A stretch of DNA of 20,173 nucleotides from a virus. Location of the stretch: positions 5,772 to 25,944 of the IMG/VR virus record IMGVR_UViG_3300030110_000662. One strand, 5' to 3'. Below, piece by piece: positions 5,661-20,051 of this stretch (within the stretch, counting starts at the first letter, position 1; each line of letters begins with the position of its first letter). The notes beneath the pieces are model-generated. The model saw only the letters and a list, made by a program, of their open reading frames with translations, was not told where the DNA came from and made no database searches. The translations under genes were made by a program, and so were the position numbers.

Positions 5661-5793
5661 GAAACCGAAAGTAAGAAACCTTGAGGCTAGAGAGTTACAC
5701 ACTCCAAAGTATAGTCTCAAGGTTATACCTGACAAAGCAAAGAAGATCTTTAGAAAAAGAAAACACAAAGGCTTAACTGATGAAAAAGATTGA
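5629..5793 (+). CDS. Small basic protein, 54 aa, unknown function
   Basis: I do not recognise this protein. It is rich in lysine and arginine (FPFRKPKVRN, KIFRKRKHKG), which suggests nucleic acid or protein-tail binding, an inference only. The ATG at 5629 has a strong AAGGAG at 5616-5621, 7 bases upstream. An in-frame ATG further upstream at 5539 is inside the single-strand binding gene and is unlikely. The gene overlaps that gene's 3' end by 32 bases in another frame and the nuclease gene after it by 14 bases, so it fills the space between two real genes and fits their coupled layout. Confidence 0.6.
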   Translation: MKLPMTRFPFRKPKVRNLEARELHTPKYSLKVIPDKAKKIFRKRKHKGLTDEKD

Positions 5794-10705: not shown

Positions 10706-10908
10706 AGTGGAAAAATCTTGAACAAGAGGCGAGAAGCTTTAACAAATCTCGTTGGTCAAAGCCTACACAAAAAGCAAAACCCCTGACAACAAGACGATTC
10801 CTAGCAGGTCAAGCTATGAGTGGTCTTATTGCAAGGGGTCAAACGAATATGAAAGATGTGGCGAGGGAGGCATACTTGTGGGCAGACAGGATGTTGGAAG
10901 AGGATTAG
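10702..10908 (+). CDS. Small conserved phage protein, 68 aa, unknown function
   Basis: The C-terminal two-thirds (RRFLAGQAMSGLIARG, then DVAREAYLWADRMLEE) matches a pattern I know from many small phage proteins that contain an 'xxFAAxALxGLLA ... AxxAYxxADAML' helical pair; no function is known to me. The N-terminus is basic. It starts in an ATGA overlap with the DUF3310 gene and is the last gene of the left block. Its stop codon TAG (10906-10908) shares bases with the stop codon of the large structural gene on the other strand. Confidence 0.75.
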   Translation: MKWKNLEQEARSFNKSRWSKPTQKAKPLTTRRFLAGQAMSGLIARGQTNMKDVAREAYLWADRMLEED

Positions 10909-13900
10909 AGAGCAGGTATTGATAACATCTTTAGTTTATCATCTGTTTCTAAAAATGTTTTAATTACATGAAGTTCTGCTCTGTTCATGTCACCAAAATC
11001 CCCATCAAACTTTAAACTTTCTATCGCTTCGTCTATCTTTTTTGAAGTGTATTTTTGAGACAATTCGTATTGTAAATCTAAGGTATCTGTAGGTCCTGAA
11101 TATTGAAGATATAAAAATGTTTTAGCTAACTCTTTTGCATTAGGTAAAACTTCTTCCCTCCACCACAACCTTTGCCTATCAGTCTCTAACTTTCTAAAAT
11201 TTTTAGACCCAATTAACCTGTCTGACTCTGCTTCTATAATATTAAACAGAATACCATTGTATTCGTTAGCAGACTCTGGTGCAATAACCCTCACTCTTCT
11301 AGCTGCATTAATATTAAACTGATCATAACCCATCATGTTCATAACACGTTGAGTATTTGTCAGTCTTATATTTCTAAACCCTAAAGATTTTGCTGAAGTA
11401 ACATCTGCTTCTCCTGTGGCAGCTTGTTTTAAAGTTTTACCTACAGGTTCTCCAGTAAATAATGGTATGATGTTGTCTATATAACGAACAGAATCATTGT
11501 ACAATTTGTTGCCTTGATACCTATCTATAGGTCTTGCTTGTTCTCCTCTTACTATACCTGCTAAAGTATTAACAGGTTCTATGAAACGTGTTGTACCAGA
11601 TGCAACTTGTGATACTACTCCACCTGCAGATTTAGTAAACCCTTGCCAAGCTTCAGACATATCTCCTGATAACATACCATCAATCATCTCTGCTATATCA
11701 GTTTGAGTTCTTGTTAAATTTCTAAGGACACCACTTAAAGTAAAGTCTCTACCAATTTGAGCTAATACTTCAGGTGGTACTTCACCCTCTTCAATTCTAT
11801 ATGACATTATCCTAGCTTTGGCTCTGAAATAAGATATAGGATAATCGTACCTTTGAGTAATAACTTCACCACCCATAACATCTTCTTCATACAAACCTAA
11901 ACCTTGTTTTCTTTTTCTAGTTTCATCTTGAACTAAAAAGGAAGCGATTGTCCAAGCTGATGCAGCTTTAGCAATCAGTTGACTTGTAGGTTTATCTTTA
12001 TATAGGCCTGACATTTTACCTACTAAAGATAATCCTGTAGCTTGAAGACCAAAGTCAACAGTGTTATTAAAGAATCTTCCAAAAGGTATCATCAAACCTA
12101 CACCCGGAATATTTCTTGCGTCTTCCATTATACCTGCCATTTGACCTAAAGCACCCTTACCCTTATAAGATTTAGAAAAGATAGCTTCTAAAGTTCTATC
12201 TACTGCTCCTGCTTCTAATGACCTGTACTCTTTTGTTGCCATAAATTTATAAGCATCTTTATCACCGTAAAATTCTGACCAACCTTTACCTGTTGCCGCA
12301 CGTAAAGCTTTATCCATTTGAAAAATAAATTCTTGTGATTTGGTAAAAGAATCTTGCGCTCTTACAAGAGATACAGCTTGTATAGCATCAACAGCATCAT
12401 CTATTCTCAAACCTAAAAGTTTTTGAGATGGAGTGAGCTTACCACCTGTAATAGTTTTAGTTGTATTCTCAACTCCTCCGGGAAGTATTGTAGAAAGTCT
12501 TTGAAGTGCTTCACTGTTTCTTGATAATGCAGATTGAAAAGCATTATAAGTCATTTCAGGATCTAATAGAAGTCTAACCCTATTCATGTTTGATCTAAAT
12601 AAATCACTTGCTATCTTTGTTGCACTCTCACCTTCTTTTTGTTTACCTATTAGTTTTAACATAGTTCCTTTACCTGCATGAAGTACAGATAAGGATATAT
12701 CTGACACAAAATTTAAAGATGCGTTTGATCCCCAACCAATAACATTTAATGCACTTGTAGAGGGATTAGAAACAAGAAGTCTTATCACTCTACCCTGATT
12801 GTTAGTTATGACTTCATTAACTGCTTCCCCTGTAGGAAGTTTGTCGCCTAATCTACCTATCAAAGATTGAGTATCTACACCCCTTCTGTACTCTTTAGGT
12901 AATAAACCTAAACCAACTGCATCATTTATTAAGTTACCTACTGTTAAGTCTTCAATAGAAATACCATTTATTTTAGAACCTTGTGAGGCAGCATTAAGAA
13001 TACGAGCAGAATTATTTATTTTTCTTGCAAAAGTATTAGCAAATTCCTCTACTGTTAATTCCTTTGCCTGTTTTAATTTTGTTCCAGTAGCTTTTTCAAA
13101 AGATGTTATAAATTTCTTAATGTCCTCTGGTTTAGAATCTTTTATTATTTCTGCAATCCAATCACTGTACTTATCATCTTCAAATCTTTTTGACCAAGTT
13201 AAACCTCTCTCTGATGCAATCTGTGCAAAACCTTTTAGAAGTACCTCACCATCTTGTTGATGACCTAAAAGTAAGTCCACAAAAAATTCTGAGTCTAAAT
13301 CTTCTAGCTCTCTTCCACCTGCAACTTTTGTTTTCCACGTACTTGTTTTTTCAACAGTGGTTTTAGCATAGTCTTCCATAGATTTTGATAAAGCATCTAA
13401 AACATCATCTGCTTTTGGAGCTACTACTGCTGATGGCATGGCTGTATCAGAAGTTCCCTTTAATAAAACTCTTCCTATTTGCACTCCACCTATTATAGTA
13501 CTACCAAGAGCCACCATACCAAGAGAAAACTTATCCATGTTATCACGAACACCTGTTTGTATTAAGCCACTCTGATAAATATATTCCATACCTGTATTAA
13601 CTGCTGTATCAAAAGCTACTGCACCACCTATTTCTTTTATGTTTTGAGATGTTCTAAGTTTTTTTAAACCTTTACTATTTATTAGTTGATTTTTATAATC
13701 AGCTAGTTCTTTTGCACCTTTTTGTTGAGCAGATTTTAATTCTTTTTTAAGAACTTTTTCAACAGCTTCTTTAGCTAATTTTTTATCACCAGTTTTTCTT
13801 AATACTTTTTGTCCTTCTTTAAGTGCTAACTTTCTTGCACCTGCCAAAGCTACTCTTACGCCACCACCTGCTACTAACTTGCCAAAGATACCACCTACAA

Positions 13901-14366
13901 TATTAGCAGGATCTAAAATAGCAGTTCTAGTAAAGTCCATAATACCTTCTGCTTTTTCTGCAAAAGTGGTTTCTTTACTAAACAAACCTGCCATGTTCTC
14001 ATAAAGTTCATAGGCAGCACTAGCTTTAGCTAATCTTTCTGGACTTTCTTTTATATCATTAATGTAGTCAATTTCTGTAAGACCTCTTATAGTATTACCA
14101 CCAGATACACCTCTTCTATTATCAAGAAAATCATCTACTATTGTTCTTTTATCTTTATCTTCTACAGCCTGTATTCCATAACGATCAAGCATATAGTCCT
14201 CAATGATATTAAACATAGTATCATTCTCTACCATATCATCTTGAGTATAAGTGCCGACTTCAGGCATTTGATTTTCTACATTACTAGTATTATTTTCTAA
14301 TTCTTGTATAGAAAAACCAACTTTGTTAGGATCTGTATCTAACTCTTGTTCTGTAAAACCTATCAT
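10905..14366 (-). CDS. Large probable internal virion or DNA-ejection protein, 1153 aa
   Basis: I do not recognise a named family with certainty, but size, position at the end of the structural block and composition suggest an internal virion (ejection) or tail-associated protein. Visible parts are: an acidic N-terminus with two copies of a GF(S/T)xQEL motif (residues 2-9 and 17-24); a basic helical stretch (KLALKEGQKVLRK and following, about 180-240); a glycine-rich hydrophobic segment (GMVALGSTIIGG, about 285-305); and IPFGRFFNN near residue 760, followed by helices and a further hydrophobic stretch (AASAWTIASFLV). No lytic-transglycosylase or polymerase motif is evident. The start has AGGTAAG upstream and lies 7 bases after the preceding gene's stop. 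The stop overlaps the convergent gene by 4 bases. Confidence 0.6.
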   Translation of the reverse strand: MIGFTEQELDTDPNKVGFSIQELENNTSNVENQMPEVGTYTQDDMVENDTMFNIIEDYMLDRYGIQAVEDKDKRTIVDDFLDNRRGVSGGNTIRGLTEIDYINDIKESPERLAKASAAYELYENMAGLFSKETTFAEKAEGIMDFTRTAILDPANIVGGIFGKLVAGGGVRVALAGARKLALKEGQKVLRKTGDKKLAKEAVEKVLKKELKSAQQKGAKELADYKNQLINSKGLKKLRTSQNIKEIGGAVAFDTAVNTGMEYIYQSGLIQTGVRDNMDKFSLGMVALGSTIIGGVQIGRVLLKGTSDTAMPSAVVAPKADDVLDALSKSMEDYAKTTVEKTSTWKTKVAGGRELEDLDSEFFVDLLLGHQQDGEVLLKGFAQIASERGLTWSKRFEDDKYSDWIAEIIKDSKPEDIKKFITSFEKATGTKLKQAKELTVEEFANTFARKINNSARILNAASQGSKINGISIEDLTVGNLINDAVGLGLLPKEYRRGVDTQSLIGRLGDKLPTGEAVNEVITNNQGRVIRLLVSNPSTSALNVIGWGSNASLNFVSDISLSVLHAGKGTMLKLIGKQKEGESATKIASDLFRSNMNRVRLLLDPEMTYNAFQSALSRNSEALQRLSTILPGGVENTTKTITGGKLTPSQKLLGLRIDDAVDAIQAVSLVRAQDSFTKSQEFIFQMDKALRAATGKGWSEFYGDKDAYKFMATKEYRSLEAGAVDRTLEAIFSKSYKGKGALGQMAGIMEDARNIPGVGLMIPFGRFFNNTVDFGLQATGLSLVGKMSGLYKDKPTSQLIAKAASAWTIASFLVQDETRKRKQGLGLYEEDVMGGEVITQRYDYPISYFRAKARIMSYRIEEGEVPPEVLAQIGRDFTLSGVLRNLTRTQTDIAEMIDGMLSGDMSEAWQGFTKSAGGVVSQVASGTTRFIEPVNTLAGIVRGEQARPIDRYQGNKLYNDSVRYIDNIIPLFTGEPVGKTLKQAATGEADVTSAKSLGFRNIRLTNTQRVMNMMGYDQFNINAARRVRVIAPESANEYNGILFNIIEAESDRLIGSKNFRKLETDRQRLWWREEVLPNAKELAKTFLYLQYSGPTDTLDLQYELSQKYTSKKIDEAIESLKFDGDFGDMNRAELHVIKTFLETDDKLKMLSIPAL

Positions 14367-14373
14367 ATCTTAC

Positions 14374-15375
14374 CTATATATTTGGATAATAAATACCATT
14401 ACCACCATAATAAAAAAATATTTTTTGACCTATATATTCACTTAGTCTAGAGTCTTTTCTAGCCATTACATCATTAACCAAAACTTCTTTTCTTGTTCCC
14501 TGTGAATTTTTAAGTAAAGAATTAAAGCTTAATTTATTTTTTAAGTCTTTAAATTGAGGATCTACTAAAACTTGATCTACAAAAGGAACTGTTAGATAAT
14601 AATTAAACAAAATACTTCTAGCATTTTCTTTTACAGCAGGTTCTGAACTATTAATATTTTTGAGAGCTGCTTCTGTCTCTCTAGATTTTTCATTATTAGC
14701 ATCAGGATTATTGATTGTATAAATTCTAGCTTGTGAAACTATTAATTTTGTTATTTCATTTAATTGAGTAGAACTTAAATCAATAGATTCTTTAGGATCT
14801 ATTTTAGTTTCTAAAGGAGTTGTTATAAATATATTCCTACGAGAACCAAAGTCATTAGTATCTATATTCATTACTTTTGTATACAAGTCTATAAAATCAT
14901 CTTCATTTTTTAAATCTGCTAACTCAAGTTCTTTAAAAAGATTAAACTTTTCTTTCTTTGTTTGATTTGGATTATCAATTATACTGACGATAGTAGGAAG
15001 ATCACTTAATTTAAATATTCTATTCTTATCTGAAGCCTGACTTTTTAAAAATTTTACAAGGTCAACAACTGCATAAGGATCGTTTTGTACTTTAGTTATA
15101 AAGTTTTTTGTTGTGTCATCGTACTCATTATTTTCTACTGATTTAGCAACTAAATCATTTAAATACAAATTAGATTCAATCATTACATTATCTTCATAAC
15201 CTTTAGTAGGTTTTAAAGCAGACTTACGTTTATCATAAAAAGTATTAATTAAACTTAATCTTCTATTTAAAGCTAACTCATCTTTTTTAAGATCAAATTG
15301 TTCTTGGGCAAATTTGTTTTGATCCCTCTTATCAAGAGCATCAGCAAATCCTTTTATTGCGTATCCACTAACCAT
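14374..15375 (-). CDS. Unknown structural-block protein, 333 aa
   Basis: I do not recognise this protein. It is rich in lysine, asparagine, aspartate and isoleucine, with no signal peptide or membrane segment, and it looks mostly helical (QEQFDLKKDELALNRR near the N-terminus could form a short coiled coil). Its DNA is notably AT-rich. The start overlaps the preceding stop by one base (TAATG), so it is probably translated by coupling. Being between two virion-type genes suggests a virion or assembly role, which is inference only. Confidence 0.7.
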   Translation of the reverse strand: MVSGYAIKGFADALDKRDQNKFAQEQFDLKKDELALNRRLSLINTFYDKRKSALKPTKGYEDNVMIESNLYLNDLVAKSVENNEYDDTTKNFITKVQNDPYAVVDLVKFLKSQASDKNRIFKLSDLPTIVSIIDNPNQTKKEKFNLFKELELADLKNEDDFIDLYTKVMNIDTNDFGSRRNIFITTPLETKIDPKESIDLSSTQLNEITKLIVSQARIYTINNPDANNEKSRETEAALKNINSSEPAVKENARSILFNYYLTVPFVDQVLVDPQFKDLKNKLSFNSLLKNSQGTRKEVLVNDVMARKDSRLSEYIGQKIFFYYGGNGIYYPNI

Positions 15376-15902
15376 TACATTCTCCTCTGCATCAGACCTT
15401 GTTGAGGTTCAACAGGTTCTTCCATCGGTGCTTCCATATCTTGCTCTGCTTCAGGCATCTCTGTATCTTCTAACGACATAGGGTCAGGAGTATCTTCTCC
15501 TCTTAACTCTTTCATCATACGTTTAGCCCTTGATACATTTCTACTGTAGGTGATAGCTTGTTTAGCTTTTTTATTTTCAAACCCTTCTTCAAACTCTATC
15601 CCTGCACGTAAGGCTGCACCCTTAATAAACTCATGGAGAACAGGTGCAATGATTAAACTAATGTCAATAGAGTGTATACCTTCCATTACAGCACTTCTTG
15701 CAATACCTTCAACAAGCGTAACAAGATCTAAACCTTCTTCAAGAAAAAACAATACATCATCCATTGCTCCTTCTTTCATTAGGTTATCAAGATGTATCTC
15801 TAGAGCCTCTCTAGGATCTGTAACATCAGGTAATTTTTCATAAGGGGCAGACTTTGAAGGTGTTGTTAAAGACTGTCCCGGTATTGGTCTATCAAATTGC
15901 AT
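15375..15902 (-). CDS. Probable virion protein of a marine-phage type, 175 aa
   Basis: From memory, this sequence resembles a protein found in several marine phages near tail or structural genes: it begins MQFDRPIPGQSLTTPSKSAP, has helices with LFFLEEGLDLVTLVEGI, then AVMEGIHSIDISLIIAPVLHE and GIEFEEGFENKKAK, and ends in an acidic, proline-, glutamate- and methionine-rich tail closing with basic residues (GLMQRRM). No catalytic motif is visible. AAAGG lies upstream of the start, 12 bases after the lysozyme gene's stop. The assignment as a structural protein is recollection plus context, not proof. Confidence 0.65.
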   Translation of the reverse strand: MQFDRPIPGQSLTTPSKSAPYEKLPDVTDPREALEIHLDNLMKEGAMDDVLFFLEEGLDLVTLVEGIARSAVMEGIHSIDISLIIAPVLHEFIKGAALRAGIEFEEGFENKKAKQAITYSRNVSRAKRMMKELRGEDTPDPMSLEDTEMPEAEQDMEAPMEEPVEPQQGLMQRRM

Positions 15903-15914
15903 CTTATTTTACCT

Positions 15915-16802
15915 TTAGTTGTATGTGCTGTAATATTTTCTTGCGTTACTTCTTCTTTTACTTAGATTAGCAGTTTCTTTTTTAGGTCTTAAAAAGGAGT
16001 TAGTAAAAATATCTGCAGCTTGTTCAGGACTTTTAGCCTTATCTAATTTATTAAGTACGTTTCCCTCTCCTGTATTCCTAAACTCATAAAACATAAAGTC
16101 TCTAAAAGCTTCATAACTTCTAGGGTCTAATCCTTTATCTTGAGAGTGTGCCAAGAAAGCATCTTTTCTAGCACCAATCTTAACAAGACCTGCATAGTCT
16201 CTATCTCTTATAAACTCTTTTCTCTTAGCTTCATCTACTCCCCTCATGTTAGTATACTGAGCAGCTGAAACACCCGGACCTTTTATTTCCTTATAACGAG
16301 TAAAACCTAAAGACTCATAATCTAGGCTACCTATAATACCTGCAATAGCTTCATCCCCCAAACCAAACTCTGTAAGATCGCTTGCTAATTCACTCGCAAA
16401 TTTATTTGGATTTGTGTCAACATAGTCAGACCCTAAACCTTCTTTATATATTCCTACAGATTTTATTCTACCTTCAGCCATCTCCTCTGTCTCTGAAGAT
16501 TCTAAGTACTCCTCATTACCTCTGTATAACATATCAAAGTAATCTTGAACAGGACTTACAGGCTCATTAACTTCTTCTTCAACATTATATTTAGGAGATC
16601 CTAATCCTTTAACCATACCTGTTTTTCTAGCTTTTCTCTCTTCATTTTTCCTGAACATTTCTGCAGGAGAACCTTCTTCACCTACAAGGCCACCTGTAGA
16701 AAAACCTCTTAACTTTTTATAACCATCAATATACATTAAAACCTCCAAAGTCAGCATCACAACGATACAAGAAACAAAAACAATTAGTAATTTGCGTAAC
16801 AT
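15915..16802 (-). CDS. Tail-lysozyme domain protein (Phage_lysozyme2-like), 295 aa or 273 aa
   Basis: Residues about 133-275 match the phage tail lysozyme domain, which cuts peptidoglycan as DNA enters: a helical start (FASELASDLTEFGLGDEAIAGIIGSL), then DYESLGF with probable catalytic E163, GVSAAQYTN in place of the usual GLAQWT, KDAFLAHSQDKGLDP, and the closing AADIFTNSFLRP. The N-terminus is uncertain. The long form (ATG 16802) begins with a membrane-anchor-like segment (KLLIVFVSCIVVMLTL) but has only a weak binding site. An internal ATG at 16736 (residue 23) has GGAGG at 16742-16746, 5 bases away, and would give a soluble protein starting MYIDGYKK, followed by the linker GFSTGGLVG. Both forms may exist. 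Domain call good; start open. Confidence 0.8.
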   Translation of the reverse strand: MLRKLLIVFVSCIVVMLTLEVLMYIDGYKKLRGFSTGGLVGEEGSPAEMFRKNEERKARKTGMVKGLGSPKYNVEEEVNEPVSPVQDYFDMLYRGNEEYLESSETEEMAEGRIKSVGIYKEGLGSDYVDTNPNKFASELASDLTEFGLGDEAIAGIIGSLDYESLGFTRYKEIKGPGVSAAQYTNMRGVDEAKRKEFIRDRDYAGLVKIGARKDAFLAHSQDKGLDPRSYEAFRDFMFYEFRNTGEGNVLNKLDKAKSPEQAADIFTNSFLRPKKETANLSKRRSNARKYYSTYN

Positions 16803-16810
16803 TTATTTTT

Positions 16811-19800
16811 TTAAAGTCCTGCAAGTATACCACTAAAACCCCCTGTAAAACCACTACCAAACAAGAACCTTGAAAATAGTGATGCTTTTCCTTCAGCAGC
16901 AGCGGCTGCTTCATCTGCATCAAGTTTTATTCTAAGTTTTTCTAAATCTTTATCTCCAAGTAATAACTGCATTGCTCTGTCCATTGCATTTTCAGAAGAG
17001 GTCATGGAAAAACTCATCAAGTCTCTTTCTCTCTGCCAAATCTGGTCTATAGATTTATTAGTTAAACCATTTACATCTTTAGCATACTGAAAGTTACTTT
17101 GATTAGCTGCAGCTGTATTTATAGTAGTGGTATCTTGTCTCCACTTAGCATTAGCCTGTGCTATTTGTGCATACATTTGTGAATTAAAAATTTCTCTTTG
17201 ATTCTGTAACTCTGAGTTAAACTTCTGGATAGCATTAGTTTCACCTGCATTAAACTGGTTCATAGCATTAGTTTGTGCAGAATTAAACTGATTAATTTGC
17301 GACTTCATTGTATTGTTAAACTGATCTACTTGCATTTGACTTGAAGCATTAAATTGTTCAAAAGCATTAGCAGAAGCTGTATCACTTAAAATAGTGTTAG
17401 CTAATGTCTGTGCCTTAAAGATCTCTGTTTGCTGTTGATTACTAAGATTTGCCATGTCTATCTGCAGGAAGTTCTGTGCGTTCTGCACTTGTGCTTGTTG
17501 CATGTTACTAAGATTTTGTGTCTCTAATTGAGAGATCTGCGCAGCTTCAGCCATGACAAGAGCCTGTCTATTGTTTAGATTAGCAAGATCTACAGTCTGT
17601 GCCATACGTGCATTCTCTAGTGCAACCTGCTGTTGAGCATTAAAGTTCATGTTAGCAACCTCACTGACTTTAGCTGCATTCATCACTTTAGTTTGAAAGT
17701 TTTGATCAAACTCCATGTTTAAAAACTTGGCACGTTGCTCTGCTTTCATCATAGCCATCTGCTGTTTGTTAGAAGCATCAGCCATAGCTATTGGTAAAGC
17801 TGATTCCATTGCAGCCTGTATTGCTGCCTGTCCTGCTAAACTAGATGCACCTAGTCCTCTTGATGCCATACCTGCCAGTGCATTACGCATAGCTCCTGAA
17901 GCCCATGCAGGTGTCTCCCCCTCTTCAAAATCCTGCATCAGAGTAGTAAGCTCATCCTTAACTGTGGCTGCCTGTACTTCTCCTGTTCCAAATGCCTGAC
18001 CCACCTTAGTTTGATCTACAGTGCTACCTGAGATTGTTTCTCCTTCTTGGAGAGTCCGAGTTGGTGCGCCCTGAACTGTCTGAGCCTGACCTATTTGAGC
18101 TGCATCAACACTTCCTACTTGAGTGGATGTAGGATCTTGTGTGGCGGCCTGAATTGTTTGTGTAGGACCTGCTGATTGAGCTGCCTGTGTTTGATCAAGG
18201 GCAGTCTGAACACCCTCCTGTGCTGTTTGAGTAGTAGCTGTTGTTGTCTGAGCAGGAGTAGGTGTATCTGCTGTAGCGACCTGACTAACTTGTGCAGGGT
18301 CAGTAACAATAGGAGCAACCCCTGCAGCTTGACCTGTTGTTGCTGATAAAACTGTTCCTGAAGCATCAGGATTTATATTAGCCACAGGAGCAGCTGAAGT
18401 AGTACCTGCAGGATTTACTACAGCACCTGCTGTTAAATTAGCTTGCTCTTGAGCCATTTCTTCTTGTGTGTAAGTTTTACCACCTGCAGTCACTGTGGGT
18501 GCTTTAGTAACTGTACCACCTGTCTGCATCTGTTGAGCTTGTGTATAACCTTGAGGTATGGGAGTGGTAGGAGAAAAAGTGCCATCAGGACTAACTGTTC
18601 CTGTAACGTAAGTTGTCATACCTTGTTGATTTCTATAAAGTCTCTGTTGTATTGTAGGTGCTGTACCTGCTGCAGTTTTTTCTGCTAGTGTTTGAGGTTG
18701 AATAAGTTGAGCCTGATCCATAGCTCTCTGTGCAAACTGTTGTCCTTGATTTGCTACATTTTGTCCAAAAGTTTGAGCTTGTACATTTGTAACTCCTTCA
18801 GCAGAAGATACAGGTTGAAATTGTTGAGATAAATTTTGCATAGGTTGTTGATAACCAGTTGGTAATGTAACTTTACCATCAGGACTAAACACTTGTTGTG
18901 CTTTTTCAACCTCTTGTTGTGTTGGTTGTATAGGAATAGTTGTAGGGAGAGAAGAAGTAGGAGTAGGAGTAGGAGTAGTATCTGATGCAGTGTCAACTTT
19001 ATAAGTATAGTTTAAAATATCTTTTTGTCCATCAGCCTGTGTATATCCACTTTTAGCCCATGCATTTTGAGCAATACCAATACCTTCTTGATAGCCTTTC
19101 TGTAGATCTTCTTCAGTCAGACCTTTTTCTGCAGCAGTTGTATAAATAGTTTGATCTGCAGTAATACCCTGCTCTTTCATAACTTTTTCTGCAAAAAGTG
19201 TGTTAGCACTACTACTATTTATTTGTGGTGTACCATACTTTTCTTCATGGCTTTGAAAAGCATCAGCAATAGGATCTGTTGCAGTATTGTTTCCATAAAA
19301 CTCACTTGTATTACCACTGTTAGTATAACCATTATTACTTAGTACCTTATTTAAAGCATTAGAATCATAGTTAGGATTTTTAAGAATAGGTTTTCCAGTA
19401 CCACTATGTGTTCCTATTACTTCCCAATTACTTGTATCAATACCCCTGTTTGTAAAATAACTGTCAGGCATACCACTAGTACTAGGTATATTATAAACAG
19501 GATCTATTCCTACATCATTAAGAGCTTTGGTCATCTCTGCAGTAGATACACCAGTTTTATACGACAGGTATTGTAGGTCAGCTAACTTTTTAATAGCTTC
19601 TTCAGATGATCCTGTTGATCCACCATTAGAAAAACCTAGTCGTTCACTCTGAACTAACGCACCCTTGTTGGCAATCATTGCTCTTGCAGAATGACCAAGC
19701 TCCTCTGCCTTTCTGTATATAACTGCCCATTTATTAGGTAGAGGTGGATCTATATTAAAACGATCAGTTAATAACTTTGCAGCTTCTGTTGCTGTTAGCC

Positions 19801-19816
19801 TACTCTTTTTTGCCAT
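16811..19816 (-). CDS. Large structural protein with hendecad coiled-coil repeats, 1001 aa
   Basis: I see three regions. Residues 1-70 are helical and basic, followed by a mixed region to about 280. Residues about 280-655 are low-complexity, rich in threonine, alanine, glutamine and proline (TPTPTPTSS, many AQ/TQ steps) and probably disordered or extended. Residues about 655-900 are helical: GMASRGLGASSLAGQAAIQ, then an array with an 11-residue period to about 898. A short glycine- and phenylalanine-rich end closes the protein (SRFLFGSGFTGG). This fits a virion protein that forms long coiled coils, such as an internal, tail or fibre-like component; similar repeat proteins occur in marine phages as I recall. 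The exact role is unknown. The start follows the preceding stop by 4 bases with AAGGA upstream. Confidence 0.7.
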   Translation of the reverse strand: MAKKSRLTATEAAKLLTDRFNIDPPLPNKWAVIYRKAEELGHSARAMIANKGALVQSERLGFSNGGSTGSSEEAIKKLADLQYLSYKTGVSTAEMTKALNDVGIDPVYNIPSTSGMPDSYFTNRGIDTSNWEVIGTHSGTGKPILKNPNYDSNALNKVLSNNGYTNSGNTSEFYGNNTATDPIADAFQSHEEKYGTPQINSSSANTLFAEKVMKEQGITADQTIYTTAAEKGLTEEDLQKGYQEGIGIAQNAWAKSGYTQADGQKDILNYTYKVDTASDTTPTPTPTSSLPTTIPIQPTQQEVEKAQQVFSPDGKVTLPTGYQQPMQNLSQQFQPVSSAEGVTNVQAQTFGQNVANQGQQFAQRAMDQAQLIQPQTLAEKTAAGTAPTIQQRLYRNQQGMTTYVTGTVSPDGTFSPTTPIPQGYTQAQQMQTGGTVTKAPTVTAGGKTYTQEEMAQEQANLTAGAVVNPAGTTSAAPVANINPDASGTVLSATTGQAAGVAPIVTDPAQVSQVATADTPTPAQTTTATTQTAQEGVQTALDQTQAAQSAGPTQTIQAATQDPTSTQVGSVDAAQIGQAQTVQGAPTRTLQEGETISGSTVDQTKVGQAFGTGEVQAATVKDELTTLMQDFEEGETPAWASGAMRNALAGMASRGLGASSLAGQAAIQAAMESALPIAMADASNKQQMAMMKAEQRAKFLNMEFDQNFQTKVMNAAKVSEVANMNFNAQQQVALENARMAQTVDLANLNNRQALVMAEAAQISQLETQNLSNMQQAQVQNAQNFLQIDMANLSNQQQTEIFKAQTLANTILSDTASANAFEQFNASSQMQVDQFNNTMKSQINQFNSAQTNAMNQFNAGETNAIQKFNSELQNQREIFNSQMYAQIAQANAKWRQDTTTINTAAANQSNFQYAKDVNGLTNKSIDQIWQRERDLMSFSMTSSENAMDRAMQLLLGDKDLEKLRIKLDADEAAAAAEGKASLFSRFLFGSGFTGGFSGILAGL
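17123..17749 (-). repeat. About 19 tandem 11-residue (33-bp) repeats within the 1001-aa gene
   Basis: Residues about 690-898 can be cut into consecutive 11-residue units without gaps. The clearest are FNASSQMQVDQ, FNNTMKSQINQ, FNSAQTNAMNQ, FNAGETNAIQK, FNSELQNQREI and FNSQMYAQIAQ, with F at 822, 833, 844, 855, 866 and 877. Older, diverged units upstream include ENARMAQTVDL, ANLNNRQALVM and QNLSNMQQAQV. At DNA level the six FN units keep a 33-base period. Confidence 0.8.
18956..18979. repeat. Hexanucleotide tandem repeat encoding Thr-Pro pairs
   Basis: AGTAGG is repeated three times exactly, with a fourth copy ending in T. On the minus strand it encodes the TPTPTP stretch of the 1001-residue protein. 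Because the unit is six bases, slippage would change the length of this linker without a frameshift. Confidence 0.75.
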
Positions 19817-19820
19817 CTAT

Positions 19821-20051
19821 CTAATCCTTACTCAATACTTTATCTAGCTTATCTTCTAGTCTATGTAGGGCATCCATGACTTGACTAAGATCATCTCTCA
19901 TTTCTTTACGTGTAACATACTCTTCTCTCGTTTTGTTTAACAGTATGTCTATACGTTTAACTTCCTGTATGAGTCCTCTGAATGCCCATACAGCAGGAGC
20001 TATAACTAGAGTTAAGATGATGTTCCAAAACATCCACATACTGATTTCCAT
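19821..20051 (-). CDS. Small protein with one membrane segment and a coiled coil, 76 aa; holin- or spanin-like
   Basis: One membrane segment at residues about 7-25 (FWNIILTLVIAPAVWAF) is followed by a charged helix of about 50 residues with heptad-like spacing (KRIDILLNKTREEY, MRDDLSQVMDALHRLEDKLDKVL). This suits an anchored coiled coil facing the periplasm or cytoplasm, as in some phage holins, spanins or XhlA-like proteins. I cannot assign it to one of these. AGGAG at 20058-20062 lies 6 bases before the ATG. It follows another small membrane protein, so the pair may be a lysis module at the head of the structural block. Confidence 0.65.
   Translation of the reverse strand: MEISMWMFWNIILTLVIAPAVWAFRGLIQEVKRIDILLNKTREEYVTRKEMRDDLSQVMDALHRLEDKLDKVLSKD

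Follow-up and report, generated by a model that had tools for sequence, protein, structure and literature searches.

In the tape-measure proteins of siphophages, 11-aa repeats marked by aromatic residues occur in variable number, and duplications of blocks have been described (PMC3271669; PMC5099701). Hendecads are also found in the tube formed by protein H of phiX174 (4JPP), where they lie on an 11/3 helix and the lumen residues of the hendecad part are all N, Q or R (PMC7354561). The ejection operons of podophages follow the gp14-gp15-gp16 layout of T7 (PMC8954989), and dimensions are available for the podophage MQM1, which has a tail of 9.2 nm and a capsid of 70.6 nm (PMC10410586). Here we describe a hendecad array in a protein carried by very common short-tailed marine phages. 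The array changes its length in exact steps, which suggests a rod or tube, perhaps one that passes DNA through the cell envelope.

The stretch of DNA analysed (the window, 20,173 nucleotides) is part of a 25.9-kb viral record, IMGVR_UViG_3300030110_000662 of IMG/VR, in which it covers positions 5,772 to 25,944. The source is a marine podophage of the HMO-2011 type. The plus strand of the window encodes helicase-primase, family-A DNA polymerase and ribonucleotide reductase, and the minus strand carries the structural genes. A gene for an HNH_3/NUMOD4 homing-type endonuclease (582-1136) lies directly behind an integrase-family gene (49-585). The array gene and its parts are the following:

16811..19816, minus strand: array protein gene, 1001 aa; a homologue is present in each of 27 phage records and in viral contigs numbering in the hundreds
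17942..19816, minus strand: N-terminal part, aa 1-625, T/Q/A/P-rich and of low complexity, highly variable in length among homologues
17783..17899, minus strand: N-anchor, aa 640-678, motif GLGASSMAGQAIIQAAMESALPIA, kept in all homologues
17090..17782, minus strand: hendecad array, aa 679-909, about 21 ungapped units without Pro
17354..17782, minus strand: NLSN-type units, aa 679-821, the side that bears extra units and 10-unit blocks in other phages
17156..17353, minus strand: FN block of six units, aa 822-887, the last block of the array, conserved in the family
16937..17155, minus strand: C-anchor, aa 888-960, NAKWRQ...IWQRERD
16814..16912, minus strand: Gly/hydrophobic C-terminal tail, aa 969-1001, seen in the sequence and also examined in the family

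A search with the 1001-aa protein matched no Pfam or PHROG family. Its homologues are labelled "hypothetical protein" in the records and once, in MW202701.1 (L053), "huntingtin", which is probably a misannotation driven by the Q-rich repeats. Among GTDB genomes, matches occur only on contigs of metagenome-assembled genomes, and these are taken to be phage contigs.

Positions 17123-17749 correspond to aa 690-898 of the minus-strand ORF, and these 209 residues form 19 hendecads without a gap, just as an earlier note on this DNA had described; the array as a whole is slightly longer and comprises about 21 units. FN, also seen by the earlier note, opens six consecutive units (aa 822, 833, 844, 855, 866 and 877). 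At a lag of 11 residues 47 identities are found versus 18.9 expected (z 7.0), a value reached in none of 5000 shuffles, while the array has a z of 6.9 at lag 22 and of -0.1 at lag 7. The periodicity is present separately in the FN part (z 6.7) and in the non-FN part (z 4.0). The unit profile of the family gives a single ungapped run in the window protein (aa 676-906, 151 bits, z 83), and every other protein tested with this profile yielded short runs only. At the DNA level TRF finds no tandem array in the repeat region, and the identity at lag 33 is 0.41 over the array (0.56 in the FN block). The units are therefore old at the DNA level. In all arrays a lag of two units is dominant (22 aa, about 33 angstrom), which is close to the pitch of B-DNA, possibly by coincidence.

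The length of the arrays was measured between the non-repetitive sequences GLGASS...ESALPIA before and NAxWRQ after the array, which are 223 aa apart in the window protein. In a first set, and subsequently in 111 distinct arrays, every distance deviates from 223 by an exact multiple of 11. With anchors and thresholds unchanged, a further 114 distinct arrays from newly fetched contigs brought no exception. In total we have 225 distinct arrays from HMO-2011-type and related podophages, with 14 to 99 units in 25 length classes and 0 exceptions, and not a single proline occurs in their 41,436 plus 29,443 (about 70,900) residues. At least about 49 length changes are required on a tree of the anchors, a count which is approximate as the tree is built from about 107 columns. 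Random in-frame indels, however, are not expected to be all multiples of 11. An assembly artefact was considered and rejected. Arrays of more than 31 units come from metagenome assemblies only; the isolates (14-29 units, among them MQM1 with 17) and an environmental complete genome of 31 units obey the rule, and long classes turn up repeatedly, in contigs independent of each other.

The earlier note had regarded the FN units as the youngest and proposed that the array grows at its C-terminal side by duplicating 33 bp. The family supports neither idea. F-type units occupy all six places preceding the W anchor throughout, 92% of all FN units belong to the final 11, and longer arrays have hardly more of them. 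As the conserved last block of the whole family, the FN units are therefore old. Additional units are found on the N-terminal side, and a one-unit difference in the alignment also lies at the N end. Long arrays grow on this side by blocks of about 110 aa (about 330 bp, 10 units), and the DNA identity between blocks reaches 80%. The AMES clade has a lag of 10 units and counts of 21, 31, 41, 51, 61 and 71, the IIQS clade lags of 5, 10 and 20 units and counts of 28/38, 39, 49, 59, 69, 79 and 99. A higher-order period of 10 hendecads, equal to 110 aa or 330 bp, can be seen in contigs L044, L047, L114 and L125, and the counts of the two clades cluster at 21+10k and 39+10k. In the IIQS clade (contigs L070-L153) no other length comes near 39 units in frequency (24 distinct arrays), and 39 units is retained between phages whose neighbour proteins are less than 30% identical. 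A difference of 10-11 units exists between relatives whose neighbour proteins are 92-95% identical, while other pairs with neighbour proteins of 25-30% identity share their unit number. The length thus tends to stay constant and to change in block-sized jumps.

The hydrophobicity of the window array peaks at a period of 2.75 residues, with nothing at 3.667 (power 0.005). In 3941 distinct units hydrophobic residues are found at positions 0/8 and 2/10, which on an 11/3 helix are two faces about 164-196 degrees apart, and the angular harmonics are 7.15 for two faces (k=2) versus 0.49 for one face (k=1). Position 1 is Asn in 65% and position 7 Gln in 48% of the units, and charged residues make up 16% at positions 3/7 versus about 40% at positions 5/9. 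The single-core 11/3 hydrophobic period of a canonical right-handed hendecad coiled coil is absent from the array; instead of the ordinary hendecad coiled coil supposed before, it has two faces. Judged from the residue pattern, this fits a helix packed on both sides, in a barrel or sheet, unlike the core of a simple dimer or trimer, and the pattern gives no subunit number. AF2 monomer models are all-helix, of low confidence (pLDDT 40-46, pTM 0.19) and silent on packing. If fully helical, the proline-free array would measure about 31 nm, which agrees with the rod of about 30 nm in the earlier note. With the AF2 model Foldseek matched nothing at an E of 0.001 or below, which is what a model of low confidence leads one to expect, and a profile search of the PDB with the array protein matched no solved structure.

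The array gene heads a conserved, co-oriented cassette in essentially all relatives with enough sequence. In these relatives it is usually followed by a protein of 225-590 aa and then by proteins of 160-240, 300-1040 and 800-1640 aa. With the array gene in first place, a hydrolase of the cell wall among its products and a very large protein at its end, the cassette is arranged like an ejection operon. The neighbours of the array gene in the window are:

19821..20051, minus strand: 76-aa protein with one hydrophobic segment, possibly holin-like, matching phrog_12220 (function not given), directly upstream of the array gene
15915..16802, minus strand: phage tail lysozyme (PF18013) with a strong N-terminal hydrophobic segment, as if membrane-anchored
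15375..15902, minus strand: 175-aa cassette protein (160-240 aa in relatives)
14374..15375, minus strand: 333-aa cassette protein (300-1040 aa in relatives), in a gp15-like position
10905..14366, minus strand: 1153-aa protein, the last and largest of the cassette, in a gp16-like position

The last cassette protein of relative L124 matches an endolysin PHROG. The C-terminus of the array protein differs in one 15-unit clade of the sample (CRP-3, CRP-738 and contigs), to which Peptidase_S74 is restricted (E 6.7e-6 and 1.7e-10). This domain is known from trimeric phage fibres. The domain or its signature ends the array protein in L057, L059, L251, L256, L257, L259, L260 and L265, and the chaperone of endosialidase (Peptidase_S74) is absent from the window protein.

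For the array protein we tentatively infer a location in the virion, ejection, an oligomeric tube and a side that faces the bore, i.e. an internal pilot (ejection) protein which may form an amide-lined, multi-helix DNA conduit like the H tube of phiX174. We prefer this reading and regard it as quite possible. The array would then be one continuous 11/3 alpha-helix, whose hydrophobic faces 0/8 and 2/10 would let each helix pack against neighbours on both sides, and several copies might form a closed alpha-helical barrel. Its bore would be lined by positions 3 and 7, the uncharged side with Gln/Ser/Ala, as in the amide-lined H tube, and its outer surface would consist of the Asn/charged positions 1, 5 and 9. 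Ejected together with the cassette lysozyme and the large downstream proteins, the array protein could be part of a DNA conduit through the envelope. This reading is based on the exact 11-residue quantum kept by 225 proline-free arrays through some 49 length changes, on the two-face harmonics together with the low-charge Gln positions 3/7 and the register fit to H (see below), on a cassette laid out as T7 gp14-15-16, and on the short tail of MQM1.

Several findings speak against the conduit. Straight arrays of 39-99 units would measure 64-162 nm, far beyond the envelope and more than a straight tube across it could measure; a fold-back in 10-unit modules is possible, and would need turns which the sequence does not display. 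Phages of one host strain, FZCC0040, differ in array length (CRP-3 has 15 units, CRP-207 20). S74, a domain of trimeric proteins, ends one 15-unit clade. Neither T7 gp14 nor P22 gp7 nor any solved structure shows sequence or profile homology, and the AF2 models are of low confidence. The earlier note had only inferred that this is a virion protein, and we found no proteomics in the literature that place the array protein in the virion.

The reading that ranks next after the ejected conduit is a homotrimeric rod such as a fibre, needle or stalk, which uses a C-terminal chaperone for folding in some members and varies in length by whole units. It is a serious rival, although we consider it rather unlikely. 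The Peptidase_S74 domain of the CRP-3/CRP-738 clade is the strongest evidence for it, fibres and stalks ordinarily vary in length, and tail-fibre genes lie upstream of the array gene in relatives. However, S74 occurs in one clade of the sample only, and the two opposite hydrophobic faces without a single-core component do not suit a trimer. A receptor-binding or beta-structured tip was not found in the array protein, and its gene heads a lysozyme/ejection-like cassette and not the fibre genes. Stacked helical hairpins, in which a block of about 10 units is one module and 39-99 units are not one rod, appear doubtful to us. Such a stack would avoid a straight 99-unit helix of about 162 nm and is consistent with the super-quantum of 10 units in two clades, with the lags of 5 and 10 units and with the Gly that recurs within AMES blocks. 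But one would expect loops of variable length in it, and neither Pro nor a phase break nor an indel other than 11n is found anywhere; moreover, the block size may merely reflect unequal crossing-over.

Quantised length in the style of siphophage tape-measure proteins (PMC3271669, PMC5099701) could also mean a ruler, with a rod determining how long some virion part becomes. We hold this to be improbable. The earlier note had suggested an internal or tail-tube rod and a comparison of repeat number with tail length. The number does vary in exact units, but in short-tailed MQM1, the one isolate compared, 17 units would be about 28 nm if straight versus a tail of 9.2 nm, so the array of MQM1 is not a tail tape; the tail tape measure was rejected on these dimensions, and they do not support a tail-tube rod. 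A ruler of the periplasm was rejected as well, because CRP-3 and CRP-207 differ on their common host and thus match no fixed host dimension. Close relatives (92% identical neighbour protein) can be 10 units apart, and no siphophage or myophage tail gene cluster surrounds the array gene; there is a podoviral cassette and a connector gene instead, and eight out of nine long-array contigs contain an HMO-2011-type tail/connector gene. Least probable in our opinion is a protein of the head interior that has DNA wrapped or organised along its repeat and forms no conduit. The 22-residue super-repeat happens to be near the B-DNA pitch, lags of 2, 4 and 6 units dominate most arrays and the faces are Q/N-rich, yet the composition of the array is not basic and no DNA-binding domain was found in the array protein.

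It is also conceivable, though we think it unlikely, that the DNA conduit or a rod is of digitally adjustable length and that the number of hendecads sets its reach or the genome drag. Its length would change in steps of one, mostly of ten, between 14 and 99 hendecads, and the longest arrays would extend well past the envelope into the cytoplasm. This would be a tape-measure-like length code in phages without a long tail to measure. The length of an unannotated protein is strictly quantised over a sevenfold range, and as isolates of 15, 20, 21 and 29 units already exist, those of 15 and 20 on one host strain and that of 29 being HTVC104P, a function of this length is directly testable. If the array does not form a tube, it represents a length code in short-tailed phages, and we know of no current model that explains one.

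The array protein is predicted to be helical like gp72 and gp73 of phage DEV, which form a DNA-wide channel after ejection (PMC10925440). The gene set of DEV differs and includes a virion RNA polymerase, and no hendecad array is mentioned in the available part of that report. Adjacent genes of increasing size together with a cell-wall hydrolase are shared with T7 gp14-gp15-gp16 and P22 gp7-gp20-gp16 (PMC8954989), and the first protein resembles P22 gp7 in being Ala/Gln-rich and helical with a Gly-rich hydrophobic end. While the known gp14 and gp7 proteins have about 200 aa and a nearly constant length, the array protein is long and length-variable. Homology to T7 gp14 was rejected (hhalign probability 0.5%), and the high unit-profile score of the T7 gp14 helix was dropped, since most gp14 relatives are without it. 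For P22 gp7 a GLGS-like motif and a Gly-rich tail can be recognised by eye, but hhalign gives 0.07% and there is no 11-period.

The tape-measure proteins (Belcaid 2011, PMC3271669; TP901-1, PMC5099701) have in common with the array protein 11-aa repeats that follow each other without gaps and have an aromatic residue in a constant place, as well as a variable repeat number and a length that shifts by whole units and blocks. In contrast to them, the array is found in short-tailed phages and in a lysozyme/ejection-like cassette, has 14-99 units, is Q/N-rich and exceeds the tail length. With protein H of phiX174 (PMC7354561) it shares the hendecads on an 11/3 helix and the richness in Gln and Asn. 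H, however, belongs to an ssDNA phage and has three hendecads followed by heptads (121 aa), whereas the arrays described here consist of 14-99 hendecads without heptads. Compared with the family profile, the three published H hendecads score +10.5 in a single register and below zero in each of the ten others (p 0.0004 versus residue shuffles and 0.04 versus a column permutation that keeps the 11-periodicity of H). In the fitting register the all-Gln columns of H land on array positions 7 and 3. Because all hendecad lumen residues of H are N, Q or R, it can be deduced from the text of PMC7354561 that these columns face the lumen. The array profile does not retrieve H, though H stands in the PDB library searched, and the likeness is therefore suggestive and is not homology. 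If the amide-lined tube proves true, dsDNA phages would have arrived independently at the solution of phiX174, which would then be known in two cases.
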